Shown here: positions 4,547-52,209 of the stretch, piece after piece
Layout of the letters: the number at the start of each line of letters is the position of its first letter
Position numbering within the stretch: position 1 is the stretch's first letter
Source of the DNA: Terebella lapidaria
Lineage: Eukaryota > Annelida > Polychaeta > Terebellida > Terebellidae
NCBI GenBank assembly: GCA_949152475.1
Contig: OX424570.1
Location: 16,922,694 to 16,986,693 of the forward strand
DNA length: 64,000 nt
Reading direction: 5' to 3'
Notes under the pieces: generated by a model
Seen by the model: only the letters and a program-made list of their open reading frames with translations
Told to the model about the DNA's origin: nothing
Databases searched by the model: none
Program-made: the position numbers and the translations under genes

Positions 4547-5895
4547 TGTCGTGTGATCCATTGTGTCGCATATCCGTTCTCGGAACCCATCGTTGGGTTA
4601 TGGGTGGGTGTCACACCCATCATATCCAGTCACTCTTAGAGACGTAATTTCGCCTGGAAATTCCACTGGAAAAGTGTCACTTTCTTGTCCTGTGCAGTCC
4701 AACCAATATCAACTCCCATTGCATTGACGTGTTACCTGGAATAATGTAGGATACTACTAACTATTAAGGAAGAATTGTCTTTGAATATGGCGAACAGTTT
4801 ATTTTTCACCATTTCACTAAAATTGATTAAAAACAGTATTTCCCAACTGGTCACAATGTGAAAGCACGTTTTCATGAATTAATGATTTAATTTATGTTTT
4901 GTTCACCAACTCACAGCAGAGATAATGCATACGTTGCGTCTCTATTTAACTGTACATTTATAATGAACTACATAGAGCTGTTTTTATCCATTGATGAGTA
5001 TCCCTACAATTTTCCGATATTGTGCAGAAGATCATAGTGTCCATAGTGTTCTACTTGGTGACGGGTTTCACAATTTATTGCACCCAACTCAAGTTCAACT
5101 TGCTACATACCACTTACTTCAATCATGTTACCATTGTTGTCCTCAAACACGAGGCGACCGAACTGATCCTGACTCACACAACGAGACCACACTGTAATTG
5201 ATGTGAGGCGGACTGGAATCGGGAGATCCAGCTGAATCCATACACCATCTCCCTCAAGACTGGATGCCCATTCATTCCCAAACCCTGCATCGACAACCCC
5301 ATCGAAAGCATTTGTGCAATCCATTCCATTTTCTCGACTCGAGGCTGTGCAGGTTATGCCCGGAAGGGTGGTTACGTCATGGACGCCATCAGCTGTTTCA
5401 ACAGGCAGATATTTCTTCAATATTGTGCCTACATAGTACAATTTACTTGCTGTTTACCCACGATTTCAGGGAGTTCGGAAATGCGTCAGGTTCAGGAACT
5501 AATAGTTGCTCACATGTGACATCTTTTGGAACAAGAATTCTGGTGATATAAAACACATTTTTGGTACATCCAGCTAGAAACTTGTCCTTGCATTGCATTC
5601 AGACTGCTAGATACGTTATATAAACTGCACAGGATATTGTCAGGATCGGTGACCATGACAACAGCTGTCTTGCACAATTCAGATAGTGAACACTTCTTCA
5701 AGCAGTGCCATCGAGTTGTTTCATCCCATGTTCAAATGCAGAGTATGTCTCAGTTTGAAACGGTATAGTCGAAAATGTGTAGTCTTTCCCGATATCATTT
5801 ATAGCCTGAGATATATAACCATTTGCTTGGGTCACATTTGATATAAACAGTACAAAACATGTCCATAAAATCATGTTCGTGACCGTCATTGCCAT
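4547..5895 (-). pseudogene. Copy A: broken PAN/F5-8C-like secreted protein gene
   Basis: Three exons are recognisable by alignment with intact copies B, D and E. Exon 1 (5895 down to about 5540) starts MAMTVTNMILW with a signal peptide. It has a 1-base loss near 5731 that shifts frame after EHGM, and its donor site is lost by a short deletion (the GTAAGT of other copies reads GTGTTT). Exon 2 (5392-5118) is fully open and encodes the first half of the F5/8C-like domain (ITCTASS, CTNAFDG, DQFGRLVFEDNNG), with a good GTAAGT donor. Exon 3 (4735-4547) still reads as LDCTGQESDTFPV but has two in-frame stops, and its end has diverged. With four independent lesions it cannot make the family protein. 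It lies inside the recently duplicated 7,068-bp unit, so a twin should exist left of the window. Confidence 0.85.
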
Positions 5896-7068
5896 TGGTA
5901 TATATATCGATTGTGGAGAAAAATTAGGTCCTCAAAATCTCGCTGCCAGTTACGTTTCAATTCCACAGGCTGACATCCGTTCTATTTTTTTTCTTGTAAT
6001 GCACTGACTCATTCAATGCAATTATCAGCGTATGTTCCTCATGAGTTCTTTTCGATTGCCCTTCAGTGTGCTTTTTGAAGCCCTTCATCCCAATAAGTTC
6101 GACTGCATGACGTCATTGGCAATAAGCACAACACTTATCAAGCACCAATATTATCCCTTATCCTATTCAAAATTTATTAACCGTCACTATCTTATGAATT
6201 GTTGCGTCACCACTCTATTCATAAGACAAGTGTCATCACTTCTTTTGGTGGTGACAATTGTCAGGAGTAGTGTATGTATTAGATACAAGGGAGCCTAGTG
6301 ATTGTGTAGATTGCGATAGTCTCATGATAGAGTAACAATAGTGGCTCGTCTTCAGCAGCATTCATTATTCACATTAATACAATGAGAATTTTCATGAAAC
6401 ATCACTGCACATAGAATGCTGCTTGAAAGGTGATGATAAACGTGCATAAATATTATAGGCGAGAAGTTGGGTGTTGATATTGTATATTGTTCTGTTGGGT
6501 GCAGTGAAGTCTTCTATTGTAAGGTGAAGTGGATAGAGATTCCAAAATGAATAACTGTTTGGAAAATGGAAGGCTCGACCATACACTTATATCAGAATAG
6601 ATACTGGTAATTAGGAGAAATATTTAGTTATATCAAGGTTGTTTTGGAGTTGTTCAATTGCGGAATTCTGATGTCCTATAATCTTATGGTATTGGTAACA
6701 AAAGGTCAATACGTAAGTCATATGACCATGGCCAACATGCACTGTGAATAACATAATAAGGAGATCAGCTGGTGTTAAATGCAATTAATTTGAGGATGTC
6801 TAATTCCTCCATATTTAGACATAGCTTTAGAGAAGTTTTTAGTCTTATACCACTGAACAAAGGTCGTTGCATACACCGACGTGTCTGCAAGTTGGCAGAA
6901 CCACCATTGAAACCTGGTTGCCTTATGCTTGACGGAGTGAGCAGCGATGTATGGATAGGCGTAGCTCAGTCATAGCGTCATGATTATTTCCCAAGAGAAC
7001 AAGATGTAACCATGTAGTTCTTGATAATACTATCAGTTAAGGCAACTTGTGCCGAGTGTAGTTCCTCG
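5896..7068. other. 5' flank of copy A
   Basis: No gene supported. A TCGATATATA-type sequence sits just upstream of the start codon and is kept in the other copies. The stretch 6660-7068 aligns by eye with 33260-33690 upstream of copy D, which shows that gene and upstream DNA were duplicated together. Confidence 0.6.
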
Positions 7069-8982
7069 ACTTCAGCGTAGTGTCAGTTCGCCAATGATGA
7101 ATAAATAGATAAAGATGACACAGAGAAAATATAGACAATGTGTAGTGTTGAAATATGGTGAAAACTGCAAAAAAGTACCAGATAATAAAGTACGTTGTTC
7201 TGTTCTAAATAACTTGAATGAAGCTGTTGATTCTCTCACCACCGAATGCTAATTGCAAAAATATATGCTTATGGAATAAGCAAAGAGGTTTGTAAGCTAG
7301 ACCTGTGAATATGGTATATAAAGAGATACCATTCAATGGAAATAAATAGGCCTAATAATTACATGTCAAATGTTGTTTCACATAATGAATATTATTCCAT
7401 TATACTTTTTGCTATACGTTTTGAATAATTACACTTTTTGTTTCATTGTCGATTACCTATTTATAGCCTCTTTATGGCTATTTTAACAGAAATCAACGTG
7501 TAAAACTAGGAACACTAAAATGAGTGTAGTAGTCTGAAGAAAGGAACAGCCCAATTATACATGTTTTGACATTTCATTTATAATATTTTCACAAGATGAT
7601 CTGCTGTTAGCGCTTTATGATAACTATCTAAGTGGCTCTGCAAGAAATGTTGTTCAAGTTGTCAGTAAGTTGGAGTGTGTCACTCTTATGTTGACATTTT
7701 GGTCGACATTCACAAACACACCTGAGATGTGTAAAAGTCAACATTGTGTGACATACGTTGAGAATATATCAGTGATTCTCATGCACACCGGAAGTGTGCA
7801 ATCTTCTCTCCATCTTCTCCAATTTCGCTTGAAGTTTTAAAAAACTAATGCACAGTTTTTGGTGTACTGACATCCATCCTCAGTGTTCTCAGTGTTCATG
7901 TGTGTGTAGAATGAACATTTGGTCATATAAACATATATTACACATGTAACGTCAATCAGTTTGTTCATTTATTCAATCAGTTTGTTCATGTGCCAATATA
8001 CAAATATTTGAACAAATTACATTCTGAGTGCTACAACTGCAATACACACATTTACATCAGGCATATATAGTGTCAGAAATATATTCAAGCCTTTTTGTTT
8101 ATGTGCCAAATAAAATATCTGAAATACACACCTTTCTGGGTCATGTTTATTAGAATACACACGTGCTCACATCACACATATCTTTAACCAGTTTTTATTC
8201 ATGAATAAATATACTTTTACAATAGCTTAGACTGTGGTCTATTTGACGTAAATACAACTATCAATACCTCATATGAAAGGTAGAGTATTGATTCGTGTAT
8301 TTGTCATACCTCACGGCTGTTCCTGGCCTATTCTATATAAATTTAACTCTCAATTTGCATGGGAAACCCTTTCCTCTCGTATATGAGTTTTCTTGAAATA
8401 TTTCAATAATCAATAGATGTTTAAATTCCGAATCATTATACATGATTCACACTCTGCTATTTGATTTTTTTGCAATACTGTGTTAACAAGTTCATGATGC
8501 CAATAACAAACGTAAAATATAACATTCTACAATGGAAACATAGCCCAACCAAAAAGTTCATCCAAAAACACACTGGCGTTATCAGAGGCAGTGTGGTAAG
8601 TATAGTTATTTCTACTGCCCCCCTGATGGATTTAGTATACAATTGCCCAACATCCTGTGAAAATAAGTAACAAATCCAAAGCAAACTCCATGGAATAGAT
8701 ATATGACAAATAGGCCTACATAATTTCCTAATCACAAGCCAAATGGCTACTGAGTTGATGGTAACCAATACAACAATGATCAATACACAGATATTAAAAG
8801 CACATGTCATCAATACATAAACGCTTACAGAGTTAAAGCCTCACACAGCCACTGCGTACAATGTGCGTATATTCCATGTATGAAATTTGGTCATATGTGG
8901 TATACGGGGAAAAACTGTGAAAAGTCGGGGTCTTTACGTGAAGTTTTGACGGAGATGTGACGGATGAACCACGTTAAAACCA
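7069..8982. repeat. Second copy of the identical duplicated segment (matches 1-1914)
   Basis: Constant offset of 7,068 bp with no difference seen over 1.9 kb. The two copies part after the shared bases AACCA (1914/8982), leaving unrelated sequence on each side. This is the pattern of a tandem duplication whose unit is about 1915-8982. Confidence 0.9.
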
Positions 8983-10055: not shown

Positions 10056-10065
10056 CACATAATAT

Positions 10066-10441: not shown

Positions 10442-10458
10442 CACATAATATGTAAACC

Positions 10459-13400
10459 CTACACAAGAAAAGTACCATGTAATTGTATTTCTCGGAATCC
10501 ACCATTGGTCATTGGACTGGTGTGACAAACATCGTATCCAGTAACTTTAAGAGACGTAATCTCGCCTGGAAATTGTACCTGGAAGGTGTCACTTTCTTGT
10601 CCTGTGCAGTCCAACCACTTCCAACTTCCATTGCAATGGCGTGTTCCCTGAAACAATGTAGGACACTGGGCGCGTTTCTTTGTGGCAGGTTGAATGTAAA
10701 CTTTCTCAACTTTTTAAACCTTTTTAGGGGAATTCCAGGTTTGCAATTTGTGCGCGTTTGATGTAAAAGTTTAATGTGAACTTTTTAAACCAGAAACTAG
10801 GGGAATCCCAACATTGGACAATTAGCTATTGTTATAATATCAGTTGCCATGACAGCATAAACAGTACCATTGTTGGAAAGTCTGACTGCATAAAGGTTGC
10901 TGTGCTAAACTCCTCAATTCACGTTATATGATGGCAACAGTTACTAGGCGTCATATACAAGCAGTTTCACTTTCTGTTATCAGTTTCTAGCTAAAGAAAA
11001 GGTTGAAAAGGTTCACGAACTTTGTCAACTCTTTCAACCTTGGGAAAACAGTTGACAAAGTTTACATTAAACTTGACACAAAGAAACGCGCCCACTATTG
11101 TTTATGAGGAACTACACTGCCAACTCGATTAGCGCTCCGAAAAATGACGATATTCCACAATACACGCTCTGTAGAGCAGCAGTGGTTAAGGCTATGAGCA
11201 CCAGAATTTGCAATTATACTGACATCATGATTGTTTTGTGACAGGAAAATAATGAGAAACATACTCATAATATTGATAGTCCTATAGATGTTTAAAGTAC
11301 ACCATAAATATCAAATCTAGGACTGATCTTTTCTCGATAAGCGGATAAGTAATACCCATCGAAACCATTTCTATTCATACATGTTAATAAATCACATCAT
11401 GGGTGCACCGTATATGGAAGGTTTTTGAAAATCCCATACGAGTGAGTTTGTCCAAAATATTTAGGGTTGTAGTTGGCATCTAGGCTCATCAACTAAATTA
11501 CACGGTAATAAACAACGTAGGCCTATGTTTGGTTTTGGACCACGTCACATGCCACCCAAGCAGCGATCAAAACTGTGTACGGTGCATTCAGTATGGTATG
11601 ATTCAGTATAATCATTACAATATTTCATGTGATTAATGCGTGGACTGAGTATCAGAAGCGATGGTTAAAATAAAAATATGTGTGGGTCATATGAGGATAT
11701 CACGCTTTGCCTTATAAATAAAGACCGCGCTTTGCGGGAGAATTGATGTACGTTGAGCCCGAGGAAAATATCCAATATGTTAAAAAAAATCCGTCGTGGT
11801 CTTCTAATCATGTCGGGGAAGCTCTGATTGTTGCTAGTAAAAATAAAAATTAACTTTCAATCAACAGAAATGTATACAAATGTATAATTATTATAGTGTA
11901 TAGAGAGCGTACGGAGTCGTGTAGCTACCAATGTGGAATGAATCAAGTTGAATCACCGATAAATACATTTGAATAATGTTGTAGTTGTGAAGAGCGGGCA
12001 AATGACGGCATGCAGATCCAGTCGTAATGCGTCACAGGCCTGGTGTCAAAGGCATGCATTCTCAGATGAGTTTCATTAATCTGTCCCACCAAATACACTG
12101 ACGAACATAATTTGTATTAATATTACATGTACAGTACATAACCTTTCTAGAATAAATGAATCATTGTCCGGGCCCCGGGCCCGGATATACTAAAAACGCA
12201 CTAATTTCAGCTGGTTCCGTTTTGCGAGGTCTCCCGCAGTGACGGGCAGGGAGTGATTCCACGGTGGACATACGTTGCGCGCTATTGTGCGGGCTTCGCC
12301 CGTTTACTATGCTGTGAACTGTAGCTCACAATGTCAGATGTCAGGGATGTTTGTGTGGTACGGTGGTCGCAAATATTGTCACTCTGTTTGCCCAGGCAGT
12401 GAAAACAAACCTGGAGTGAAGACTCGAGCACTGAGGAATAATAGGCGAGATATTAGTTTTAATTCATAAATAAAAAAAAAAACAGCAAAACATTTCCTCC
12501 GGACATATTCTTAACACTTTCCATTCCTACTATTTTGTAGCTTGTCTTTATCAATATAAATATAATATAAACACATAAATAGACTGATCGATGATCCTGT
12601 TGTACACCAACCTGTCAATATTTTTAACTATGTACATGCACGGTGGCTCTTTTAGGACATTGCTCTTTTATTTTATTAAAAGAAAGTTAGAAATATTTGT
12701 GGCACATATTCAATCATTTTATACGCGAATTTAATAATTTTATGAGGATATTTAATATTTTATACGCATATTTAATGATTTATCAAGCATATTTAATATT
12801 TTATATGCATACTTAATCACTAAGTACACGTATTTAATATTTTATATGCGTATTTAATATTTTTACGCATATTTAATCATTTATTACGTGTATTTAATAT
12901 TTTATACGCGTATTTAATATTCTATATGCGTATTCAATCATTTATTATGCATATCTAATATTTTATATGCAAATTTAATCATTTATCATGCATATTTAAC
13001 ATTTTTATGCATGTTTAATATTAAATATGCGTATTCAATCATTCATTACGTGTATTTAATATTTTATACGCATATTTAATATGCATATTTCATCGTTTAT
13101 TACGCATATTTATTATTTTTTTATTCAAATTCAATATTAAATACGCGTAGATAATCATTTACTACATGTATTTAATATTATATATGCGTACCTAATATAC
13201 TATATGAGTATTTAATCATTTATTGAGCATATTTAATATTTTGTATGCGTACTCAATAATTTATTATTATTAAAAATATTATTATTGAAAATTTGGTATA
13301 CACATTAAACAAATTTGACTACACATATTAAATATGCATATAAAATATTAAATATGCGTAATAAATGATTAAATACGCGTATAAAACACTAAATACGCAT

Positions 13401-19400: not shown

Positions 19401-20468
19401 TTTGGCATCTTTGTCATATTTCCTGTATATTCCTTACTATCTCGAGATGTACTTTCAATTTGTGTGATGAACCAAAATGCTCAATTTGGCTGATTTTGAA
19501 ATTGGTTGCAACTTTAATACTTTGTTCTACTAAGTTATATTAACTGTAAATATAACTAGCTCTCAGTTATCAAGAACTGTTTTCAGTGGTTGATGAATAT
19601 CTTTACCATTTTCTGATATTGAGCTGGACAACAATTAGCATTCCGAAGTACCTCTAAACCAAGTTCAAATGCTACATACCACTTACCTCAATCATGTTGC
19701 CATTGTTGTCCTCAAACACAAGGCGACCAAACTGATCCCGTCTGTGACAACGAGACCACACTGTAATTGATGTGAGGCGGACTGCAATTGGGAGATCCAG
19801 ACGAATCCATAGCCCACCTCCCTCAAGATTGGATGCCCATTCATTCCCAAACCCTGCATCGACAACCCCATCGAAAGCATTTGTGCAATCCATTCCATTT
19901 TCTCGACTCGAGGCTGTGCAGGTTATGCCCGGAAGGGTGGTTACGTCATGGACGCCATCAGCTGTTTCAACAAGCAGATATTATTCAATATTGTGCCTAC
20001 ACAGTATCATTTATTTGCCGTTAATCTACGATTTCAGGGAGTTCGGAAATGCGTCAGTTTTATGAAATAATAATTGCTCACATGTGACATTTTTAAAAAT
20101 AAAAATACTGGTGAAATAAAACACTTACATTTCTGGTACATCCAGCTAGAAACTTGTCCTTGCATTGCATTCAGACTGCTAGATACGTTATATAAACTGC
20201 ACAGGATATCGTCAGGATCAGTGACCATGACAACAGCTGTCTTGCACAATTCCGATAGTGTGCACGTCTTCAAGCAGTGCCATCGAGTTGTTTCCATCCC
20301 ATGTTCAAATGCAGGGTATGTCTCAATTTGAAACGGTATACTCGAAAATGTGTAGTCTTTCCCGATATCATATAAAGCCTGAGATATATAACCATTTGCT
20401 TGTGTCACATTTGATATAAACAGCACAAAAGATGTCCATAAAATCATGTTCGTGGCCGTCATTGCCAT
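10459..20468 (-). CDS. Gene B: secreted PAN/apple-like plus F5/8C-like (discoidin) protein, 3 exons
   Basis: Coding exons 20468-20129, 19961-19687 and 10647-10459 join in phase (340+275+189 bp) to give 267 residues with no stop. Residues 1-24 (MAMTATNMILWTSFVLFISN...) are a signal peptide. The rest of exon 1 is a PAN/apple-like module with Cys in KTCTLSELCK and ILCSLYN. Exons 2-3 form an F5/8C-like carbohydrate- or lipid-binding domain: ITCTASS, CTNAFDG, WIRLDLP, then ITSLKVTGYDVC and GGFREIQLHGTFLV. Donors are GTAAGT; acceptors are CAG/CT and TTTCAG/GG. The start aligned across copies is the second Met (20462). Intron 1 is 167 bp; intron 2 is about 9.0 kb and filled by foldback and MITE insertions. 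Inference: an extracellular lectin-like protein. The ligand is unknown, and splicing of the large intron is unproven. Confidence 0.75.
10668..11093. mobile_element. 426-bp MITE, 3-bp ACT flanks, in intron 2 of gene B
   Basis: The ends GGGCGCGTTTCTTTGTG and CACAAAGAAACGCGCCC are perfect inverted repeats, and similarity continues about 40 bp inward. ACT lies on both sides (10665-10667, 11094-11096). The sister intron of E reads straight through at this place (40655 onward). Because E already has ACTACT there, the 3-bp duplication is likely but not certain. No ORF. It sits 20 bp from the exon 3 acceptor. Confidence 0.75.
12634..14029. repeat. Nested AT-rich inverted array inside the giant foldback
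   Basis: Edges GGCTCTTTTAGGAC and GTCCTAAAAGAGCC are inverted. Between them are dozens of units of about 20-30 bp of the type TTTAATATTTTATACGCATA on the left, and their reverse complement (ATTAAATATGCATA) on the right; orientation flips near 13270-13290. Each unit carries a short palindrome such as ACGCGT or ATGCAT. Non-coding. Confidence 0.85.
14958..15454 (-). promoter_or_regulatory. Promoter-like insert in the right arm of the giant foldback
   Basis: This segment of about 500 bp is present in the right arm and absent from the left arm, and it is less AT-rich than its surroundings. On the minus strand it carries TTCCCAGCATCCTCTGCG, close to the ZNF143/Staf-type site, and a weaker relative (ATTTCCCAGAGTCCTATG). 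A 97-codon frame from ATG 15165 (MTRKPYRFCRFLALRNP) runs out of the insert into the arm. I do not recognise its product. Capture of a host promoter or first exon is inferred; the alternative is loss from the left arm. Confidence 0.35.
15769..16059. mobile_element. 291-bp MITE, 5-bp TAAAG target duplication
   Basis: The ends TCAGAGAGTGTAGAACAGAG and its inverse (16040-16059) are near-perfect for about 29 bp. TAAAG flanks both sides (15764-15768, 16060-16064). The sister intron of E has the single GGTAAAGT near 40770. No ORF. Confidence 0.8.
16071..17183. mobile_element. 1.1-kb foldback element, 5-bp ATGAA target duplication
   Basis: Arms of about 490 bp (16071-16560 and 16700-17183) are inverted copies, with ends CACAGGGAGGAACCG and CGGTCCCTCCCTGTG. 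ATGAA lies on both sides (16066-16070, 17184-17188). Inside each end a short motif, TCTGATTCTATGGGCAAA, is repeated about four times, as subterminal transposase-binding repeats often are. The class is not assigned; CAC ends with 5-bp duplications recall Transib. Confidence 0.8.
17189..17852. other. Intron 2 of gene B, unassigned sequence
   Basis: I see no exon, repeat or element boundary. It no longer aligns by eye with the sister intron of E after the first 20 bases, so further unrecognised insertions are likely. Confidence 0.4.
17857..18593. mobile_element. 737-bp foldback element flanked by TTAA
   Basis: Arms of roughly 350 bp are inverted, from GGTTGTTGGCTTCCTTTGG at the left to CCAAAGGGAGCGAACATCC at the right, with TTAA on each side (17853-17856, 18594-18597). 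TTAA duplication is typical of piggyBac- and Kolobok-type insertion. The inner part carries GGGGTCACCATG, also found as GGGGTCACCGTG in the TTAA foldback at 32839-33255, which suggests one family. No transposase. Confidence 0.8.
18598..19686. other. Intron 2 of gene B, remaining part
   Basis: No gene. The last 150 bp before exon 2 (19560-19686) resemble the start of intron 2 in D and E (ACCATTTTCTGATATTGAGC); the rest is unassigned. A single TGATTCTATGAGC near 19060 recalls the subterminal motif of the 16-17 kb foldback. Confidence 0.4.
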
Positions 20469-24894: not shown

Positions 24895-25462
24895 AAACAA
24901 AGTGCCATGTAATTTTATTTCACCGAACGCTCCATTATTGTATGAATAGGTACGACAGTCATCGTATGAGATGTAATTTCGCCTCGAAATTGCACCAGAA
25001 AAGTGTTCCCTTCTTGTCCTTTGCAGTCCAATCGAAATCCACTTCCATTGCATTGGCGTGTTACCTGAGATAATGTAGGATTCTACTATTTGGGAAATTG
25101 GTTGTCAGTGACTAGATCATGCAACGGATGGTTCACCATTCAGCAAAATCGAGAAAAAGAGTACCTCCCAACAGGTTGCTAAAGTAAAAAAGCGTGCTTC
25201 CAAGAGCGAGCTAAATCTTATTTTGTGCTACCAAGTTAGTGAGTCGTATGTTAACTATATATGTAACTAACTGTTATCGAGAGCTGATATCAGCAGTTGA
25301 TGAATGTTATTACCATTTTCCGATATTGAGCCAGATAACAGGGACGGTTTTGATTGCTTGAGGTGACTGCTTGGTAATGGGTTCCATAATCTATAGTCAT
25401 AATCTTTGATAAAGCAAAATGTGTCCATTAAATCGTGTTTGTGATCGCAATTGTTATTAGTA
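24895..25462 (-). pseudogene. Copy C2: deleted remnant of a PAN/F5-8C-like gene
   Basis: Exon 3 (25064 down to about 24900) is recognisable as VTRQCNGSGFRLDCKGQEG, with a 13-bp loss where copies B and E read LKVTG; this shifts the frame. Upstream, the start of intron 2 (25160-25380) runs straight into a degraded exon 1 start (about 25460-25400, matching the ATGATTTTATGG signal-peptide region). One deletion therefore removed most of exon 1, intron 1 and exon 2. The start codons are also lost (ACAATTG in place of GCAATGA). Clearly dead. Confidence 0.8.
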
Positions 25463-27881
25463 TATATATCGAATGTCAGAAGGTCTTCAAATATCGTTTC
25501 CATTCATCCATCAGTTCCACAAGCTGACATCAGTTTTATTTTTCATGTAATACACCAATCTTTCATTCAATTTCGTAACATTTTTTCTCTCACCAGAATG
25601 CTCTTATGACTTTTCAACCCCCCTTCGCATGACGTTCTTGATGATAAGCGCAACATTTGTCAAGCACCGATATTTCCCTAAATCTATTCAGAATTTATAA
25701 CCCATGTTCAGAACATCGCCCTATTCATAAAAAAAATGTCAGGAATATTGTATCTATTAGATACAATAGAACCTGGATAACGTGCAGATCGCGATAGTCT
25801 CACAATAGAATCGTCAAGTGTCGCTCGCCTTTGGCAGCATTCATTGTTCACGCCCACAGAATGGGATTTTCATGAAACCTCACTGAGCCTGGAGTCCTGC
25901 TCGGATAGATGAAAAACATATTGTAGTATACACCGGAATTCAGGTGTTGGCATTGTATAAGAACTTACATCAGAATAGATACTGGTAATCAGGAGAATTA
26001 ATTACCTGAATTAAGGCTGTTTTGGAGCCATTATTTTAATTTCGATGTCAACATTGTATACTATTTCCGTTTGGTACATTGGGGTACCCACAAATTGCCT
26101 ATAAGGGACAATTTTATGTCATCGGTAGTAAGGTAAATAAGTCAGAACTTACTGAGAAATATCCACTGTGAATGTCATATTAACTAGGTATAGATCAGCT
26201 GTTGCCAAGTCCAATTAATTTGAGGGTTTTTCAATTTGCACTGGATGTGTGTCAACATTTTGTGACACATGTCAACATTTTGTGACATATGCTGAAAATA
26301 TATCATAGTGATTCTCGTGAACAACGGAAGTGTGCATTCTTCTCTCACTCATCTCCAATTTCGCTCGGAGTTGGGAAAACGGACGCACAGTATTAGTGTG
26401 ATGACATTCACAAGTTTTCCTCATGTGTGTGCAGGATAAACAGCTGGTAATTTAAACAGATATTAAATCATAGGTATATAACTTCACATATTTATTCAAA
26501 CAGACAATATATATCATGACAAAAATAAATTCAAGCAGAATATTTTTTTGTTTGTGCCAAAATAAATACCTGAAATACACAACATTCTGAGTTGTTCATA
26601 TCACAATACAAACAAGCTAACATAACACATATATTTAGGCTGTTTTCATACATAAATAATTCTACCACAGTTTATGCTTTTCATAATAGCTTAGAATGTG
26701 GTTTACTCGACGTAGACACAACCATGGTACAGGTACAATAGACAACTCACGCATTCATCCATCCTCTCACCAAAACTCGAGGATTGAATGGTGTATTCAT
26801 CATACACTATGGCTATTTGGGATCTATTCTATACACAAATGCAACTTTCAATTTGCAAGGGAAACCCTTTCTATTTGTGAATGAGTTTTTATAAAATTCT
26901 TCAACTGACCTTCAGTAATTATTAGACCTTTAAATTCTGAATCATCATATATGTACATGTTATTTCTGCTACATATTTTTCTACTTGTATTAAAAAAAAA
27001 TATTGCTGGAAATTTCTCCTGTATAAAATCAATACAACAATGATCAACACACAGATATTAAACAGACATGTCATTAACATCACAATATTAGGATAATTAG
27101 ACAACAGTGCCAAAATGTGGAGATATATTGTTAGAATTCATCAGATGGAATTCATCAGGTGGAGATGTATACTCAGGAGAAATATCAACCTCTCTTCTGA
27201 AATAACTTTACCGGAAGCTGACAATATCTGAGGAATATACCTATTGATCAAAACCACATGATTTTGGTGGTGTCAATTAAAAGCCTATACTAGAAAATTA
27301 TACCGAACTAGGTAGCATTTCTGGAATATGAATGTAACCCATCCAGATATTCATATCCGAAGACACACTGGCATCATCAGGGGCAGATGGTTTATATCAT
27401 GTTGAAAAAGTTACGTAGGAAGCTGCTTCATCAGCGCCAGATAGTGTTCAGAAAAAAGTGCGCAGAGCAGTTTCGGTAGGAATTCGGGCAGTTGGCCACT
27501 CATTATAGAGACATTATACTGACCCGGTACAGGTAATGATCATGCAGTTTATGCTTATTCGTGATTTATATAAGACACTTTAGTGGTTTATAATATCTAC
27601 TTGATAGAATAGGTATAAAAATGGCTAAGTCAGATTTAGTCATTTTAGAAATCCAAAAACGAACCCGCAAACACTATACATGTACATACATTTCTCAGGT
27701 GACCCACAAAAGCATGGGCCTGTTGAATTATGCTGACACCTTTTGATGTCTAACATGTGCAGGCATATTCATGATACTCAGAAACAGTGTGCTTCTTTCC
27801 TCTGGTTCCTGTTCATTGTCGTCTGATACATTGTGACCATCTGATAAATGTTTATTCTGCACTTCGAATAACATGTAAACT
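25463..27881. other. Diverged unit flank between copies C2 and D
   Basis: No gene supported. Blocks align by eye with 6000-7000 and 780-1750 (for example TCTCCAATTTCGCTCG near 26350 against 750) and with the common 3' flank (27300-27880). A single 63-codon minus frame at 26922-27113 matches part of the hydrophobic frame of the duplicated segment but is not preserved as a protein. Confidence 0.5.
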
Positions 27882-30800
27882 CTACACAAAAAAAGTGTCA
27901 TGTAATTTCATTTCTCGGAACACACAATAGGTGTCCGGACGGGCGCGACAAGCATCGTATCCAGTAACTTTAAGAGACATAATTTCGCCTGCAAATTGCA
28001 CCGGAAAAGTGTCACCTTCTTGTCCTGTGCAGTCCGACCAATACCCACTTCCATTGCACTGGCGAGTTACCTGAAATAATGTGGAAAACTATAGTCAGGC
28101 ATGTATAATAGGTGTGCCTGCACCCCCCCCCCCTCTTGATCCTCCGTAACCAAATTTGCTAGCTGGTTTTTATCATATTATTGAATATTAGTGATGTTTC
28201 CGGAGGCCCATTCCTGGCAAAAATGGTTTTCTTGGCCTTTTTCAAAATGGCCGCTGTCGAAAATCCGGAAAATCATGTTTTGGGCTATAACTCAGCTTCT
28301 ATCGCACATATATACATCATTTTGGTGTCTACATCCATGTTTTTGATTTTGGGGAATACGATGATGTCATTCTTTTGTACCAGTGACTGTTGGTCGCTTC
28401 AGAATCCAGAATGGCTGACAATGAAACCATCGAAAATCACATTTCCGACCATGGTGCCACTGATATGTGAAGGAATCCTCAAATGAGGCCAGATTGATGA
28501 TAAAACAGTTCCATTCTCACAAATCAGGCTCACACCATAAGAATTAATTTTAAAAAATAGTCCCAAGATGGATTTTTTTTGAATGCCTGGATATATTTCT
28601 TGATGACGAGTGTGGCGCTCGCTCAAAGTCGGTGAAAAATATTGCATTTTTTCTGTCACTTGACCTAGTCAGATGGTTTGGGGTTCGTAGAAGCCAACAT
28701 TAGTAGTTATGCATCATTGCCAGCCATTTTGATTATTTATTCACATATCAGTGGCACCATGGTCAGAAATGTGATTTTTGCTGGTTTCAATGTCAGCCAT
28801 TTTGAATTCTGAAGCAACCAACAGTCACAGGTACTCAGGAATGACACCATTTGATTTCCCAGTATCAAAAACATGGGTATAGACAGCAAAATCATGTCTC
28901 TATGTGCAACAGAAGCTGAGTTATAGCCCAAAACATGATTTCCGGATTTTTGACAGCAGCCATTTTGAAAAAGGCCCAGAAAACCAAACCATTTTTGCCA
29001 GGGATGGGCCTCCGGAAACATCGCTAATATTAGAGAATATGATGGAAACCAACTAAAAAAAATTGGTTTTGGAGGATCATGGGGGGGGAGGCACACCTAA
29101 GATACATGCTCGACATATGAATGTGTGGTTCCATGAGCGAGTTTATTAATACTTTGCTCTACCAAGTTATTAGGTTGTATTTATTTGTATGACTAGTTGT
29201 TAGCAAGAAGTGTTATTGGTGATTGATGAATATCCTTACCATTTTCTGATATTGAGCGGGATAACAAGGGCAATTTTGATTTCTTAGAATGTTTTACTCG
29301 GTAATGGGTTCCATAATTTATTGCCTGTAACGCAAGCACAACTCGCTCCATACCGCTTACCTCAATCATGTTGCCATCGTTGTCCTCAAACACAAGACGA
29401 CCAAACTGATCCTTTATGTGACAACGAGACCACACTGTAATTGATGTGAGGCGGACTGCAATCGGGAGATTCAGACGAATCCATATACGATCTGCTCCAC
29501 CATTGGATTCCCATTCATTTCCAAGTCTTGCTTCAACAACCCCATCGAAAGCATTGGTGCAATATGTTCCGAGTTTTTGACTCGAAGCTGTACAGGTTAT
29601 TCCTGGGAGAGTGGTTACGTCATGGTCTCCATCAGCTGTTTCAACAAGAATATATTTCTACAATGTTATTCCCATCCGGTGTGTACACAGACTGTAGCCA
29701 ATCCAAAATTAGCCCAAGGGCTAAGAAAGGTTACCGGACTGATGAAGGTCTCATTTACGATCACCACTGAAACTGCAATATATGATTTCCCATTTGATAC
29801 TTCCAATATTTAAGCTCTACCTTGAAGTGTTCTAGGAGTTTTCTCCATACAGCTACCATTCAAGGAAGAATATCAAAGGTCAAATTCAAGGTCATAACAA
29901 TATTCATTATATATCATTTCATATGTACACAATTGATTCCTAAGCCATAATGTAGCTAACAAACAAGATATTATCCAAAGGTCAAATTCAAGGTTATGAG
30001 GATATTCAGCTTATATCAGCTCCTGTATGTACACAATCGATTCACAAACTGTACAGTTAATAATCAGCGAGATATTAGTCGTTTTGTGCTCTGACTTTGA
30101 AAATAAGCTCAAGGTGAAGTTCAAAGTCATGACAATATTCAGCACATATCATTCCCTATGTGATCACAATTGATTCCTAAGCTGTAAAGTCAATAATAAG
30201 CGAGATAATAAACATCTTGTTCTGTGACTTTAAAAACGAGGTCGAAGGTAAAATTCCAAATCATGAGTATATTCGGTATACCTCATTTTCTATGTGTCCA
30301 CAGTTGATTCCTAACCTATTAAGTTGATACTAAGCAAGATATTTCTGTTTTTGTGCTCTGTACATAATTGATTCCTAATCTGTAAAGTTGATAACAAGCG
30401 ATAACATCAATTACCCATTTTGTGCTTTGACCTTGAAAATTAGGTGCAAGATCAAGTTCAAGGTCAAAAGAATATTCAGCCCATGATTTCCTATATGTGC
30501 ACAATTGAATCCAAATCTGTAAAATTGATGATAAGCGAGATATTACCCATTTTGTTCTTTTGACCTTGAAAATGAGGTCCAAGGTCAAGATCGAGGTCAT
30601 AAGAATATTCAGTATATATCACTTCCTATTTGTCCACAGATGATTCCTAATCTGTAAAGTCAATAATAAGCGAGATATTACCTATTTTGTGCTTTGACCT
30701 TGAAAATGAGGCAGTTGTATACTAATTCCACTAATCAGGAATTACTAATTCCATCAGGTATACAGTAGAAACAACTACATTTAACACACTGTCTGCCTCT

Positions 30801-32136
30801 GATGACGCCAGTGTGTCTTTGGATAAACTATTTGGTCGGGCTTTGTTTCTATTGCAAAATGTTGTATTTTACGTTTCTTATTGGCATCATCAAAATCTGA
30901 TTATATAGGTGGTAATAGATCGATACTTACATTCAAGGTCAACAAAATATTCGGCATACATTATTTCCTATATGTTCACAATTGATTCCTAAGCTGTAGA
31001 ATTGATAAGCGAGATATTAGTCATTTTGTGCTCTGACCTCGAAAATAATCCAGAGGTCAAATTCAAGGTCAACAAAATATTCGGCATACATGATTTCTTA
31101 TAAGTTCACAATTGATTCCTAAGCTGTAAAGTCGATGATAAGCGAGATAGTAACCATTTTGTGCAGTAACCTCGAAAATTAGGTCAAAGGTCAAATTCAA
31201 GGTCACGAGAATATTTGGAATATATCATTTCCTATATGTCCACAATTGATTCCTAATCTCTTATCTCAATAATAAGTGAAATATCAGGAAAAATGTTTCC
31301 CATTATAAAGCATAGGAAAATTTAACATGGCAAAATCCCATTTGGGACCCGTCGAAAACATCAAAATGGCTGCCACGTGCAGACTGGCGATTGAAGGGCA
31401 ATGAAACTTATACATGTCACAGAGGTCCATGAGGGGAATTTTTTAAAACAAACATCTCAAAAGTGGTCAGAAAGTTTTTGAGTAAATGGCCGCCAAAGTC
31501 CAAAATTGACCATTCCCCCCCCCCCCCAAAAAGCCGTCATTTTGAGAAAAAAATTGCGAAAATAAATAAACTAAAAACTACCTCCCTCTTGATATATTTT
31601 TAGGTATATTTGTGCAAAATTTCAAAACGATTCGACTGTAAAGATAAAGATGTAGACGGACGACGACGGATGCAACGCCAAGGCAATGGGTTCCTGGACC
31701 AAAGGTTCGGTAACCTAAAAATGACATCAACAATTCCAAGAAATAATGTTCACATTAAACATTTAAAACTGCTTGTGAAACAAAATAACTCACATTTCTG
31801 GTACACCCAGCTGTCAACTTGTGCTTGCATTGCATTCAGGCTGCTAGATACGTTATAAAAGGAGCACAGGATATCATCTGAACCAGTGACCAAAGTGACA
31901 ACAGCTGTCTTGCACAGATCTGACAATGTGCACGTCTTCAAACAGTACCACGGAACTGTGTCTGTCCCATGTTCAAATGCAGAGTAAGTGTCAGTTTGAA
32001 ATGGTACAGTTGAAAATGTGTAGTCGTTCCTAATATCAAATAAACCTTCAGATATACCGCCATTTATTTGGGTCATACATGGTACAAATAGTACAAAAGG
32101 TGTCCATAAAATCATGTTTGTAACCGCCATTGTCAT
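27882..32136 (-). CDS. Gene D: secreted PAN/apple-like plus F5/8C-like protein, 3 exons
   Basis: Exons 32136-31794, 29635-29361 and 28070-27882 (343+275+189 bp) join in the same phases as B and give 268 residues without a stop. Exon 1 starts MTMAVTNMILWTPFVLFVPC, a signal peptide; the start conserved across copies is the second Met. The PAN-like part has KTCTLSDLCKTAVV and ILCSFYN. The F5/8C-like half in exon 2 reads ITCTASS, CTNAFDG, WIRLNLP and DQFGRLVFEDNDG; exon 3 reads LDC-like SDCTGQEGDTFPV, LKVTGYDAC and FREMKLHDTFFV. The NGGFRE core seen in B and E is YCVFRE here. Donors are GTGAGT and GTAAGC. An AATAAA lies about 30 bp past the stop (27851-27856). Intron 1 is filled by a pearl-like element and intron 2 by a foldback. 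Extracellular role inferred. Confidence 0.75.
28111..29097. mobile_element. 987-bp foldback in intron 2 of gene D, TA flanks
   Basis: The ends GGTGTGCCT and AGGCACACC, each next to a C or G run, are inverted and flanked by TA (28109-28110, 29098-29099). Arms of about 370 bp pair almost throughout (ATGTTTTGGGCTATAACTCA against its inverse near 28915). The middle, 28490-28735, is unique. No transposase. It separates exon 3 from exon 2 of D without touching either. Confidence 0.8.
29728..31716 (+). mobile_element. Long pearl/CvA-like element in intron 1 of gene D
   Basis: It begins AGGTTACCGGAC and ends GGTTCGGTAACCT. The core has about nine or ten diverged units near 138 bp (29875-30715 and 30925-31290), then the GCCGCCAAAGTCCAAAAT module, a C run, a GACGGACGACGAC microsatellite and the terminal hairpin. 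The core is split by a foreign piece at 30718-30912. It has more core units than the element at 21691-22956, the copy-number variation usual for this family. Confidence 0.7.
30718..30912 (-). repeat. Inverted piece of the gene-unit flank inside the pearl-like core
   Basis: Read on the minus strand it matches 1430-1570 and 8498-8638 (AACGCCAGTGTGTTTTTGG here reads GACGCCAGTGTGTCTTTGG on the plus strand). It is diverged, so it was captured long before the recent duplication. Confidence 0.7.
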
Positions 32137-36344: not shown

Positions 36345-36760
36345 ATTTTGCGAACTCCGGAAACGCATTCCAAGAAATAATTGCCCACATTGAACACTTT
36401 GAAAACAACATTGGTGAAATAAGACACTCACATTTCTGGTACACCCAGCTGTCAACTTGTGCTTGCATTGCATTCAGGCTGCCAGATACGTTATATAAAC
36501 TGCACAGGATATCATCAGTCCCAGTTACCATGGCAACCGCTGTTTTGCACAATTCCAACAGTGTGCACATCTTCAAGCAGTGCCATCGAGATGTGTGTAC
36601 CCCATGTTCAAATACAGAGTACATCTCAGTTTGAAACGGAAGCCGAAAATGTGTAATCGTTGGTAACATCGAATAAAGCCTCAGAAATATTTGCTTGGGT
36701 CATACTTGATATAAATAGTGCTACGAAAAGTGTCCATAAAATCTTGTTTGTGGCCGTCAT
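36345..36760 (-). pseudogene. Copy F: exon 1 only, broken
   Basis: The signal peptide reads MTATNKILWTLFVALFISSM from ATG 36760. The PAN-like part is present (FEHGVHTSRWHCLKMCT, then ILCSLYNVSG) up to a GTGAGT donor at 36432. A net 2-bp loss in YTFS-PFQT shifts the frame. Exons 2 and 3 are missing: the 3' flank (CCTCCGATACATTGTGAC...CAGATGGA, as next to copy E) joins directly to intron 1 sequence near 36345. One deletion therefore took exon 2, intron 2 and exon 3. Confidence 0.8.
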
Positions 36761-37155
36761 TGCTATTGGTTCATATGTCGATTGTGAAAAGGAAAATATG
36801 TCCTAAAAATCTTGTTTCCAGTCATACATCAGTTCTACAGGCTGGGATCAGTGCTATTCTTTATATAATACACTGACTTTTCATCGAAATTATGAACGTC
36901 TTTTGATCACGAGATGCTTTTATTTCTTTTCAATCCCCTCTAATCATTCTGGCGTTTCATCCCAAGATGTTTGACCGCATGATCTTCTTGCCAATATGCG
37001 CAATACTTAACACGCACTTATCAATTTTCAATCCCCCTTCACGATGTTTTATTCAAGCCTTTCATCCCAACAAGTTTGACCGCATGACGTTCTTGCCACT
37101 GATTACAACACTTAACAGGCGCTAATATAGTCATAATTTCGTGTCGGAGAACATT
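36761..37155. other. 5' flank of copy F
   Basis: No gene. Aligns by eye with 41770-42300 upstream of copy E, which provides the empty site for the element at 37156. Confidence 0.6.
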
Positions 37156-38155: not shown

Positions 38156-38164
38156 ACCCTTGCC

Positions 38165-40458: not shown

Positions 40459-41763
40459 TTACACAAGAAAAGTGCCATGTAATATTATTTCTCGGAACCC
40501 ACCATTGGTGTTTGGCCGAGTGCGACAAACATCGTATCCAGTAACTTTAAGAGACGTAATTTCGCCTCGAAATTGCACCGGAAAGGTGTCACTTTCTTGC
40601 CCTGTGCAGTCCAGCCAAAACCCGCTTCCATTGCATTGACGTGTTACCTGAAATAATGTGGACACTACTATACATGAGGAACTAGTTGTTAATGACTATG
40701 GCGAGCAATGGTACTTCACCATTAACTGAAATGGATAAAATGTAACTTCCATCTGGTCGGTAAAGTAGAAATGTGTGGTGCCATGAGGGAGTTTATTAAC
40801 ACTTCGCTCTATCAAGGTAGTAAGTCGTATTTACCTGTATATAACTGGCTGTTATCACGAACTGTTATCAATGATTTATGAATATTCTTACCATTTTCTG
40901 ATATCGAGCTGGGTAATTTTGATCCCCCAGAATACTGGTAATGGGTTCCATAATTTATTGCCTCTAACCCAAGCTCAATTTGCTCCAAACCACTTACCTC
41001 AATCATGTTGCCATTGTTGTCTTCAAACACAAGGCGACCAAACTGATCCAGCCTCGAACAACGAGACCAAACTGTAATTGATGTGAGTCGGACTGCAATC
41101 GGGAGATCCAGACGAATCCATACACCATCTCCACCTTCGGCTGCCCATTCTTTTCCACGCCCCGCATCTACAATCCCATCGAATGCATTGGTGCAATTCA
41201 GTCCGCGTTTTTGACCAGAGGCTGTACATGTTATTCCCGGAAGAGTGGTTACGTCATGGTCGCCTACAGCTGTTTCAACAAGCAGATATTTCTACAATAT
41301 TGTGCGTACATAATATCATCCAGTAGTGTTAGGTAAAGCATCAACAGTTCCAAGGAATAATTGCTCACATTTAAACACTTTTTGAAGAAATAGAAAACAT
41401 TGGTGAAATATAAAACTCACATTTCTGGTACACCCAGCTGTGAACTTGTGCTTGCATTGCATTCAGGCTGCTAGATGCGTTATATAAACTGCAAAGGATA
41501 TCATCAGGAGCAATGATCATGACAACAGCTGTCTTGCACAATTCCGACAGTGTGCACGTCTTCAAGCAGTGCCATCGAGATGTGTGTAGGCCTATCCCAT
41601 GTTCAAATTCGGAGTACGTCGCAGTTTGAAACGGTATGGTCGAAAGTGTGTAGTCGTTCGCAATATCAAATAAAGCATCAGAAATATTGCCATTTGCTTC
41701 GGTCATACTTGATATGAATAGTGCTACAAGAGTTGCCCATAAAATCGTGTTCGTGACCATCAT
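40459..41763 (-). CDS. Gene E: secreted PAN/apple-like plus F5/8C-like protein, 3 exons
   Basis: The most compact intact copy. Exons 41763-41421, 41269-40998 and 40647-40459 (343+272+189 bp) give 267 residues with no stop; introns are only 151 and 350 bp. The start ATG (MMVTNTILW) matches the second Met of B and D. A signal peptide of about 23 residues ends near MTEANG. The PAN-like part has RWHCLKTCTLSELCK and ILCSLYNASS. Exon 2 holds ITCTASG, LNCTNAFDG, WIRLDLP and DQFGRLVFEDNNG; exon 3 holds WLDCTGQESDTFPV, ITSLKVTGYDVC and GGFREIILHGTFLV. It is one codon shorter in exon 2 than B and D. Its introns are free of insertions and act as the empty-site reference for the elements in gene B. Extracellular lectin-like role inferred; ligand unknown. 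Confidence 0.8.
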
Positions 41764-47950: not shown

Positions 47951-48159
47951 GCATGGAGAGATAAATGTTGGTATCGACCTATCAGCCTTTTATTACAATA
48001 ACCTTTTATTACAATATTTTGATGATGATAATAAAAAAAACTTAACATTAAACATTTTTGGCATAGAAATAGCAGACAGTGTCGGGAATTTTGGAATAGA
48101 AACAAAGCACAGTGTGTAAATACAGTTTTTTTTCCAATGTGCACAAGATGCAATTAGTG

Positions 48160-48440: not shown

Positions 48441-49652
48441 ATTCCAGAAAGGTATTATACTTTAAGACTTTGTGGTGGCGGTGTTAATAGCGGGGTTGAT
48501 ACATCATACATAATGATACAAAATCACACGACATGCTCTTCCGTTACCTCGATACTGATACCATATATTTAATAAATACTGGATGCTGGAATTTACTGGC
48601 CAGAATTCCATTTGATTCTCATGGTGTTTTATTCACAGGTCTGCGACTGTCCATCAATTCGGTAGAACTCCAGCGCAGTAATATACCCATGCCATGCTTT
48701 TGTTGTCTGTTCCCGCATGACTATTTGTCGTAACCCTGGTTGTGTCGGCTCGCTAAGCATTGATCAAATATGGCGAAGCTTAATCAACGTCATGCTCATT
48801 CAACGTTGTACATGTAGTTGCATTTACATATTGACATGAGGGTTCTAATTTCATGTTTGTTATCCTTTTTAATGGTAATCACATGTGGGTATCTGTAACA
48901 CAAGCATTGAGATGGGAACAATGTTCTTATGTGCGTAAGTTATGAATGAACGAATAGCATATTTGGTTAACAAATATTGTATGTTATATCCTCATTGTAT
49001 ATTTTGTTTAAGTGACAAGTCATTCCAGCAAAAAGTTCTAACTGTCGCAGCAAAACAGTCCATTACGGTGCCAATAGTGATGACTGTCAACTGCCACGAG
49101 TTGAATATGTATTTGAGATCGCATTTGCCTCATGGAATGGTATCACTCATAAATAGGCATTAAACTGCAAAAACTTTTCTGTGCGGATGTTGCGCAACAT
49201 ATCGAATGTAACATGGAGTGTTTACTGTTTTACTTCTAACCTATTTCAGCAGCGCATAAGATCGTGAAGCATGTCATTGGAACGAACCATGGTACAATAC
49301 TGTATACACCCACTGAAGGGCTGATGACTAGCCGATGTTTTTTTTCACCTCCAGATGCAATTATACATAGTCATTGAAGTACCAGTGGATGGGTCTTTCA
49401 TAGTACAAACACTGTAGGAGGTGTTTTCCAAAACTATCAGGAAATGACAATATTTGTCACCAAGAACGGATGTCATGATTGTTTAATCAGAATCGCTCGT
49501 GGGTATATAAATATTCTCCGCAAAAATGCCATATAATTGTAACGTGTAGATTCCGTCTTACGCGTATAGTGGACTGTGAATTGCTGTCGAAATGAAACTT
49601 TGGATTATTTTTGTGTCAGTGTTGAACTGAATTGCAGAACCACAATCCCAAC

Positions 49653-52209
49653 ATGTCAAAACCTATTTTAGTTCTGATCGCACATTTTCTATTTTGTGCA
49701 TTGGCTGTGTTAGCTCTAGAGAACTCGCTAATATCCACAAAATACCTTACGAAACAAGATCGCAAATTTTCAACGGGGCCGTTTGAAACGAGGAAATATC
49801 TCGTAAAGCATCTTGGGAGCAGGAGCGCCCGGCTGTCCTGCTTGGTCACTTGCTCAGCCATCGACAAGTGCAAGGCAATGATTGTTCAGACAACAGGGGT
49901 TGGCGATCATACATGTGATTTATATGACCTCGCTGCCCTCTACCCAACCGTATACCAAGCTGGAAGCTGGATCTATCATAAAAGTGAGTAAAATACTTGA
50001 ACATAAAAGTGCGAAATATGATGGTCTAGGTTTCAAGACTCATCATGCTTCATGCACCCATTTTCAGATATATAAGTTATATATATATCATAAGTTATAT
50101 AAGCAAATAAAAAGCCATAGAAATATATATAATGTCAAGCCACAAATAAAAAGCCCATAGAAATATATAATGTTAAGCCACAAATACTTGTTCACCGTTA
50201 TCAACAAAATTTGCTTTGTTGATGTTCCGAGTTCACTGAAGGTCAAATTAAAGGTCGCCACTGATATATACACATATGATTTCCTATTGGAAGTACAATT
50301 GTACAACTGTTTAATTTCTAGCTTGAAGTATTTGACGAATTTACTTCATACAACTTCCATGGCGAAAGATAATATGGATGGAATTTTCTATATCCAAAAT
50401 AATTTTCAATGGGGAAAAAGCAATTTTAGGGGGCTGGAAATGATTAGAGAAGGGTAGGGAGAGTGAAATGCCCGCCAATATATTATTTTCTAAATCCAAC
50501 GAAACTTTCAATGGTGGAAAAAATGGGAGGGGGGGGGGGGGGGGGAGGGCTGCAAATGGTTGAAAACAGTTAGTGATAGTGAAATTTTAGAAACACATTT
50601 TAGAAAATATACGCCAGATTCCTAAAATACCATTTTTAAAAGCGCCAAAATAAAAACAAGAAACCGAACAAATTGAAAAATACCTCTCCGATTGTTTTCA
50701 GGTATTTTTGACGAAAATTTCAGGAAGTTAATATTGTAAATTCAGAAATGCCAATCGATTATCGGACCGTAGGTTCTGTAACCTGAAAAAGTCCGAGTCA
50801 CTTTCCCAAGGAAATGGGCGATGGTTTTTGTTCGTGGCGATCAGATTCTGTACGTATCACTTGTTAGGACTCCAGTCACTTAGAGAGCTACAGCAGAGTA
50901 TCCGCCACGCTTGTGTCGTATACATGGAGAAACTAGGCTGAAAGTCCAATCACGGTTTACAGACCACGTGCTTCTCAATGGAAACACGTGAAGCAACAAC
51001 AATAATAAAACTTGATATTTTTGTGACTATTCCTAAAAAAATTGGAACCATTACCCAAGTACGATATATTCCGAAGGAACAAAACCGAGTCCGTTATCTA
51101 ATCTCAAATTTCAGTGCCAGGCAAAATTGAGAAAATTTTATGAACAGGAAAAATATAAGATACCATACTATGAAACTGGTACTCGCCCTTTTCGTGCTGT
51201 GAATCTCGCAGCTCTCAAACTGCCATGGACTTGGTCCTTGTGCAAATTGAAGATCATGGCTTTGGCTCACTGATTGCGAAATCACTATTTTCGCCAGCTA
51301 ATCTAAACCAATGATTATTGACCAAGGACATTATATTTGATTTCGCTAAACATTTATAACTGAATAAAATGCTCGGCCGATTGACATTTTCACCCACGAC
51401 TCTCGTTTTAGTTCAAGAAACCGGCTGGGCTGTTGACATCACGTCAATTCCTGGCGTGACGTGCACAGCTTCTTCAGAGGAAGACGATCTCGAGTGCTAT
51501 AGGGCTCTCAACAAGCAAACACAAGGGGGATGGTATACCGAGTGGTCTGCTAATGGTGAAACAGACGGGGCGTGGATAAAATTTGATCTGCCGGAACCAG
51601 TGATCTTAGAGAGAGCCATCCTGTGGTTCCGCTGCAACAGCAACGACCAGTTCCGTCGTTTCAAAACAGAGACCAGCACTGGACTGCAGAAACAGGTAGG
51701 CAAAAATGAAAGGGTGTGACTTTTAAACGTCAATGTTGAGCAGTATTCGTTCAGTGATTCAACGCTTTCCGGTGCCACATAAAGTGAACTGGCCCTCCTC
51801 CGTGATAATTCGATTTGTTGTTTCGTGTGGCACAATACATTTGAAAGAAGATGGCCATCTTGAGACATTGTAGGCTGTGACCATAGGCGTTGTCAGACGC
51901 AAATTGAAGATTTAGTAGAATATATGAAGCATTTCAATTAGGAATGAGGAGTGCAATGAATAAATAAATGGAAAATGTGAAACAATAAACGGATCCCAAT
52001 AAAAAAATTTTCAGATGACTCGTTCCTGCAATGGTGGTATCGACTGGGAGTCTTGTGGTGGTCAACCTGGCGAAGAATTTGCGTTTGATTTTCCTGATCC
52101 GACGACTTTCGTGAAGTTCACCGGCTATGATATGTGCAGTTCAAATTTTCTCTTCCCCAGCAATGGAGGTTTCCGCGAAATTGAATTAAATGGGATCTAT
52201 TACTTGTAA
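49653..52209 (+). CDS. Gene H: divergent plus-strand paralogue, secreted PAN-like plus F5/8C-like protein
   Basis: Exons 49653-49983, 51412-51695 and 52015-52209 (331+284+195 bp) join in phase to 269 residues without a stop. The start ATG is MSKPILVLIAHFLFCALAVLA, a clear signal peptide. The PAN-like part has RLSCLVTCSAIDKCKAMIV and HTCDLYDLAA, ending SWIYHK like the SWVYQK of the tandem copies. The F5/8C-like domain has VTCTASS, LECYRALN, WIKFDLP, DQFRRFKTE, then SCNGGIDWESCGG, VKFTGYDMC and GGFREIELNGIYYL. Donors are GTGAGT and GTAGGC; acceptors are CGTTTTAG/TT and TTTTCAG/AT. Exon order and phases match B, D and E, but sequence identity is low and orientation is opposite, so it is an old relative. 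Intron 1 (1.4 kb) holds a pearl-like remnant. Confidence 0.8.
50390..50795 (+). mobile_element. Decayed right end of a pearl/CvA-like element in intron 1 of gene H
   Basis: Ends with the hairpin-like ATCGGACCGTAGGTTCTGT and AACCTGAAAAA. Upstream are a long G run and the TATTTTTGACGAAAATTTCAG phrase of the family's right module. The microsatellite is lost. Older than the copies at 22 and 31 kb. Confidence 0.5.
51045..51165 (+). repeat. Dispersed repeat family, copy 2 (partial)
   Basis: Shares CCGTTATCTAATCTCA and AGGCAAAATTGAGAAAATTT with the copy at 34299-34486. Confidence 0.6.

Follow-up and report, generated by a model that had tools for sequence, protein, structure and literature searches.

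A turning-over tandem family of small genes with a PAN-like part and a DUF7402 domain in the annelid Terebella lapidaria

What is encoded by a run of small, similar genes, several of them visibly decayed, that lie side by side in the genome of the polychaete Terebella lapidaria? The question is raised by a stretch of 64,000 nucleotides (positions 16,922,694 to 16,986,693 of contig OX424570.1, assembly GCA_949152475.1), referred to here as the window, in which seven copies of one gene were found between positions 4571 and 52209. In searches of the whole 762-Mb assembly (438 contigs) the window corresponds to C17:16922694-16986693; coordinates given without a contig name are those of the window. 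An earlier account made from the letters alone, hereafter the sequence-only reading, had described these copies as a cluster of secreted, lectin-like genes. They are genuine members of a tandem family that is turning over and whose kind is already known, and the explanation that best accounts for the evidence as a whole, and is probably correct, is that this family encodes a soluble, secreted, two-module extracellular binder.

The cluster was initially placed at 4547..52209, and the seven copies are indeed found there, but the array does not end at those limits and continues on both sides. It comprises at least 18 copies across ~155 kb, eight of them open and ten broken. Nine are of the B type (Y1, Y2, A', A, B, F, D, C2, and E), seven are of the H type, and two are distant. 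To the left of the window lie Y1, Y2, and an exact second copy of A; a single base is missing from exon 3 of Y1 and from exon 2 of Y2, and each is broken as a result. To the right, six H-type copies (H2, H4, H6, and H7 open, H3 and H5 broken) are followed by the two distant copies. The first of these carries a stop in exon 2, and the second has an open exon 1 and an exon 2 with two frame breaks; the map is less complete to the right of the H-type copies, lacking exon 1 of the first distant copy and exon 3 of the second. The birth-and-death process that had been proposed is thus borne out: births have given rise to two subfamilies as well as the two distant copies, for a total of at least 18, and ten of 18 are broken.

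The likeness among open copies is far above chance, with tblastn expectation values (E-values) of 2e-59 between the first exons of B and E and 1e-67 between the second exons of D and E; H matches the other open copies of the window at 1e-8 to 1e-22. Across 28 pairs, the products of the open copies are 33 to 86% identical. When exon 1 of copy E was searched against the genome, 18 of 20 matches at E-values ≤1 fell in the array and the two outside reached 0.15 and 0.89; exon 1 of H gave 18 matches, 16 in the array and two outside at 0.16 and 0.72. As exon 1 is matched outside the array only at E-values above 0.1, this type of exon appears confined to the array within the reach of single-sequence searches, which are shallow, as even the array's own last distant copy came up only at 0.11.

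Four of the open copies lie in the window, three of them (B, D, and E) on the minus strand and the fourth, H, on the plus strand. In each, three open exons are flanked by GT donors and AG acceptors, the introns fall in phase 1 and then phase 0, and the stop occupies the corresponding position, giving products of 267 (B), 268 (D), 267 (E), and 269 (H) residues. Canonical splice sites and constant phases are found in all eight open copies of the array. In B, exon 1 (20129..20468) encodes a hydrophobic start and a four-cysteine PAN-like part and is open to a GTAAGT donor in phase 1. Exon 2 (19687..19961), with an AG acceptor and a GTAAGT donor in phase 0, encodes the first half of a DUF7402/F5/8C-like domain (DUF7402 E-value 2.3e-9), and exon 3 (10459..10647), with an AG acceptor and open to the stop, would encode the second half, though its assignment to B is uncertain. 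The junctions predicted for B at 20129/19961 and 19687/10647 are correctly positioned with respect to GT/AG sites and frame. Copy E follows the same arrangement, with exon 1 at 41421..41763 (open, GTGAGT donor, phase 1), exon 2 at 40998..41269 (open, phase 0, DUF7402 E-value 1.1e-6), and exon 3 modelled at 40459..40647. H, a member of the second subfamily on the opposite strand, has its exon 1 at 49653..49983 (open, GTGAGT donor, phase 1), exon 2 at 51412..51695 (open, phase 0), and exon 3 modelled at 52015..52209; its exon 2 matches DUF7402 at an E-value of 2.5e-9 and F5_F8_type_C at 4.3e-5, the latter under the cut-off.

In D, exon 1 (31794..32136) is open with a GTGAGT donor in phase 1, and exon 2 (29361..29635) is open in phase 0 with a DUF7402 E-value of 1.5e-7. 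Exon 3 (27882..28070) reads YCVF before RE where the other seven open copies have NGGF, leaving D with an odd, eleventh mature cysteine, and from its sequence this copy could be heading for loss. A tandem repeat with a 134-base-pair (bp) period occurs in two blocks, one in the first intron of D (29948-31346) and the other between B and F (21737-22579).

Three copies of the window, A, C2, and F, are confirmed to be dead by different lesions, all on the minus strand. Exon 1 of A (5557..5895) is one base short near 5720, exon 2 (5118..5392) is still open, and exon 3 (4571..4735) has two in-frame stops and has lost its 3' end. For C2, exon 1 alone was found (36433..36766), with its reading frame broken. 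F (24895..25562) consists of a frame-broken exon 3 remnant at 24895-25079 with intron and 5' scraps up to 25562. The exon order and phases attributed to all seven copies therefore hold for five (A, B, D, E, and H), but C2 and F retain too little. A also lies within an exact 6,159-bp direct repeat, whose right copy occupies 2824..8982 and whose left copy starts 4,245 bases outside the left edge of the window and ends at position 1914, at a copy spacing of 7,068 with 909 bases between. Being 100% identical, the repeat is either a very recent duplication or an assembly artefact.

Between A and B, the divergence is 4.8% for exon 1 and 6.2% for exon 2, against 17.6% for exon 3 (153 sites only), which argues against their interpretation as a plain recent duplicate pair. 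In 150-column windows they are 86 to 98% identical over exons 1 and 2, while just outside the identity is 60 to 82% upstream and 70% downstream. The pattern may reflect sequence conversion over exons 1 and 2, a swapped or non-B exon 3, or exon constraint alone. The stretches 5118-5895 of A and 19687-20468 of B are thus noted as a possible case of gene conversion in which a dead copy and an open one were the partners. The last intron of B, from exon 2 to exon 3 at 10459-10647, spans 9,039 bases, and this length together with an exon 3 that is no near relative of that of A makes B as a single gene the least certain of the four window genes. Frame and splice sites allow the join between its exons 2 and 3, which is the weakest joint of the models. 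Inside this intron, positions 12692-14025 are densely packed with short repeats, both tandem and inverted, that recur at steps of ~20 and 41 bases.

The C-terminal half of the protein is best assigned by profile. Against the curated Pfam cut-offs (27 bits for DUF7402, PF24135; 28.2 bits for F5_F8_type_C, PF00754), the eight open joined proteins all pass for DUF7402, at 29.0 to 48.6 bits with a best E-value of 1.1e-12 (copy E 29.0, B 36, D 31.8, H 36.5, H2 48.6, H4 38.8, H6 37.9, and H7 40.6), the match spanning profile positions 7 to ~100 of 133. None of the eight reaches the cut-off for F5_F8_type_C, the listed scores being 12.3 to 28.0 bits, although in six this model covers the same residues as DUF7402 (best E-value 2.5e-6; none listed for B and D); taken exon by exon, the four window copies score 12.3 to 24.1 bits. 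The appropriate label is therefore DUF7402, F5/8C-like. The full F5/8C-like halves that were originally described stand as DUF7402 domains with weaker F5/8C matches on the same residues, but not as F5_F8_type_C domains proper. Pfam states no function for DUF7402 and no paper was found under that name in the literature collection searched; an NCBIfam scan gave no match. The domain is common in the genome, as all 150 candidates scored, out of 201, matched at E-values ≤10, which is a lower bound. Across the eight open proteins 55 residues are invariant, including ten mature cysteines, four in the exon 1 module and six in the DUF7402 domain.

When the joined alignment was compared by profile with solved structures, seven matches were returned with E-values of 0.13 to 0.69, none significant. 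Three of these are short glucanase/chitosanase chains aligned where the DUF7402 part begins (positions 127-181), and are presumably carbohydrate-binding modules of the F5/8C-type fold. F-type lectins share their fold with discoidins and clotting factors, according to the accessible part of one account (PMC5712786). An F-type lectin was considered and rejected, as the fucose motif HX24RXDX4(R/K) is absent from all eight open copies, even with the spacing relaxed to 20-28.

Exon 1 is harder to classify. In all eight open proteins the most hydrophobic 13 residues are N-terminal, scoring 1.84 to 3.41 against 1.21 to 1.93 for any later stretch, with a narrow lead in copy E (2.15 against 1.93); on this hydrophobicity score, the signal peptides described earlier may well be retained. 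These N termini are followed by a module of four cysteines, C-x3-C-x5-C-x14-C in all eight copies (x15 in D), which in alignment fall on the four cysteines that are invariant among five PAN exons elsewhere in the genome. Compared with PAN/apple domains (PF00024), the first two cysteine gaps equal those in the PAN exons of loci L029 and L032, whereas the last gap is 11 in the five PAN exons and 14 or 15 in exon 1 of the array. A solved-structure search with exon 1 as the query listed 60 of 115 matches at E-values ≤10, from 0.11, of which 58 were G-protein beta subunits and two were thyroglobulins; these were taken as chance.

What makes a PAN assignment of exon 1 likely is a gene on another contig, C9, that has the same plan. 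This gene (L029, C9:29375500-29378500), whose exons were joined by hand from frames and splice signals, encodes 239 residues with a hydrophobic start and a true PAN_1 domain in exon 1 (27.6 bits, cut-off 21.4). Its introns are in phase 1 and phase 0, and its exons 2 and 3 encode a DUF7402-like domain that falls just short of the cut-off (26.9 bits against 27). Aligned with the family profile, its residues 50-233 match across 184 columns (E-value 7e-15, 26% identity), most of the likeness, by eye, coming from the second half. The compact plan thus does not stand alone but occurs elsewhere in the genome. PAN_1 exons are also found upstream of F5/8C-like exons on the same strand and within 6 kb in at least 12 places, a count that drew on 48 of 150 PAN_1 rows and 24 rows chosen by eye, with one-gene status worked out only for L029. 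From these sequences, the array appears to be a branch of this PAN plus DUF7402 plan that has diverged and expanded. Some 0.8 Mb from the array, C17:17765000-17968000 (loci L019-L023) holds seven DUF7402 exon matches, one with three internal stops and another with one; no exon 1 of the array type was found near these loci, either in the stretches examined or in the genome searches.

Whether the open copies have been under constraint was addressed through the ratio of nonsynonymous to synonymous substitution rates (dN/dS) under a purpose-written GY94 codon model. The B group consisted of B, D, and E together with broken A, Y1, and Y2, codons being masked in the latter, and was given the topology ((A,B),(D,E),(Y1,Y2)), in which A and B were joined by distance; the H group consisted of five open copies. 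Many inner nodes of the gene tree are supported at only 30 to 61, and one tree put A beside the H group with support of 35. A single ratio gave 0.50 in the B group (twice the log-likelihood difference, 2dL, 36.3 against a ratio of 1; p 1.7e-9) and 0.33 in the H group (2dL 92.4, p 7e-22), values that reject neutrality on average and not for each copy. By part, the B group has 0.59 at the start (not below 1, p 0.14), 0.53 in the PAN-like part (p 0.003), and 0.45 in the F5/8C-like part (p 1e-7). Pairwise dN/dS is below 1 at p ≤0.011 in all 11 pairs tested of the 28 open-copy pairs, including B-E (0.47, p 4e-4), B-D (0.59, p 0.011), and D-E (0.58, p 0.010); the B-A pair was put through the same test beside these 11.

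Taken together, the open copies would encode a protein of ~268 residues with a signal-peptide-like start, a four-cysteine PAN-like module, and one DUF7402 domain split across two exons. If transcribed and secreted, as seems probable from their structure, such proteins would presumably be held together by disulfide bonds, the ten cysteines shared by all eight copies allowing two bridges in the first module and three in the second. Sugars and lipids serve as ligands of F5/8C-type folds, and PAN modules recognize proteins or glycans. The presumed F5/8C-like jelly roll of the array proteins may accordingly hold a sugar or lipid ligand, while the PAN-like module could bind a second partner or form a dimer, and we infer from this that the proteins bind their targets outside the cell. 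They could be used in mucus, gut, or body fluid for the recognition of microbes or of self, with copy number drifting through unequal crossing-over, gene conversion, and decay. A role in recognition or mucus would fit the turnover of copy number.

The alternative that survives best, although unlikely, is that these are secreted structural proteins, contributing to a matrix, tube, cocoon, or mucus, and that their two modules are used for assembly and adhesion rather than recognition. Matrix adhesion is a role of PAN and of F5/8C modules alike, a small cysteine-rich two-module plan would suit such a use, and many copies could serve dosage. The products, however, are more diverged (33 to 86% identical) than pure dosage requires, and no low-complexity or repeated stretch is apparent in them by eye.

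Several results weigh against a functional secreted binder. None of the lectin motifs tested is present in the open copies. No PAN model matched the eight joined proteins at E-values ≤10, nor the exon 1 frames of the window at ≤1, and a genome search with PAN_4 gave nine matches at ≤0.01, none of them in the array. Alignment of the exon 1 profile with the five PAN exons (hhalign) was not significant (probability 0.4%, E-value 0.16), albeit with the cysteines in register, and structure predictions of exon 1 were of no use, the mean predicted local distance difference test score (pLDDT) being 52.7 for four sequences and 37.8 for the mature part of six. The PAN-like label of the sequence-only reading consequently keeps its support from cysteine spacing, position, and the C9 paralogue with a true PAN_1 domain, but not from any PAN match or significant profile comparison. 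The codon tests are likewise divided. The terminal branches of B, D, H2, H6, and H7, five of the eight open copies, are indistinguishable from 1, and the low value of H belongs to a branch near saturation at silent sites. Moreover, broken A and Y1 also have dN/dS below 1 (p 0.002 and 0.001), although Y2 does not (p 0.19). At least two of the deaths therefore look recent, and the codon test reads old constraint and not present function. The expectation that dN/dS among the open copies would depart from neutrality holds on average (0.50 and 0.33) but not for every copy.

A second alternative is that the array is a relic of once-useful genes in which all copies are silent or dying and the open frames have simply not yet been broken. 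It would account for ten broken copies among at least 18, two of them (Y1 and Y2) lost through a single missing base, for broken copies whose dN/dS is as low as that of open ones, for the five open copies whose own branches are compatible with neutrality, for D, which lacks a conserved stretch and has an odd cysteine, and for B, which needs a 9-kb intron. Yet eight fully open three-exon copies persist, and the terminal branches of E, H, and H4 have dN/dS below 1 (p 0.026, 2e-18, and 0.002, uncorrected for 11 branches), making a wholly defunct array improbable. That the genes serve a glandular or feeding secretion, like the anti-haemostatic PAN proteins of leech saliva, is scarcely credible, because leech salivary secretions do contain PAN and F5/8C proteins but the accessible part of that account treats them as separate protein groups (PMC7191736), and nothing links these genes to blood feeding or to any gland.

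A secreted two-module binder thus remains the preferred reading. A far more specific form of it, in which the locus is a lineage-restricted, fast-turning array of germline-encoded soluble proteins, each a minimal two-site receptor built from one DUF7402 jelly roll and a PAN module that has degenerated, diversified by gene conversion and differing in set among individuals or populations, would make it an annelid recognition locus new to the literature, and is very unlikely. The array is nonetheless a well-delimited case of birth and death, with eight open and ten broken copies of small two-module genes side by side. It also gives DUF7402 a compact natural context, with one domain per protein and a single partner module, in a form amenable to expression and ligand testing. 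Were individuals to differ in copy number or sequence, the array would be a candidate recognition locus.

Three further features were observed outside the array genes. On the minus strand at 57884-60765 lies an element of the long interspersed nuclear element (LINE) type, with a reverse transcriptase frame (RVT_1, E-value 2e-34) and an endonuclease frame (2e-10). Elsewhere in the assembly, contig C438 carries the mitochondrial genes nad3-nad2-cox1-cox2-atp8-cox3 in that sequence, open under the invertebrate code, with cox1 identified by a profile and the others by eye; this is the gene order of annelids. In addition, C417:44633-46450 (loci L026 and L027) contains a second cox1-like match with in-frame TGA codons and an AT-rich composition (75.6% A+T in L026), perhaps the mitochondrial genome of another organism in the sample.

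Among the matches listed in searches of the literature on PAN, discoidin domains, and annelids, no description of this compact family was found. Its elements nevertheless have counterparts in known systems. PAN/apple proteins include the leech anti-platelet protein, as recounted in the accessible part of one source (PMC7191736), and in lophotrochozoans secreted lectin-like genes are known to have expanded in tandem, for example among the C1q-domain proteins of bivalves, according to the portion available of another (PMC6835236).

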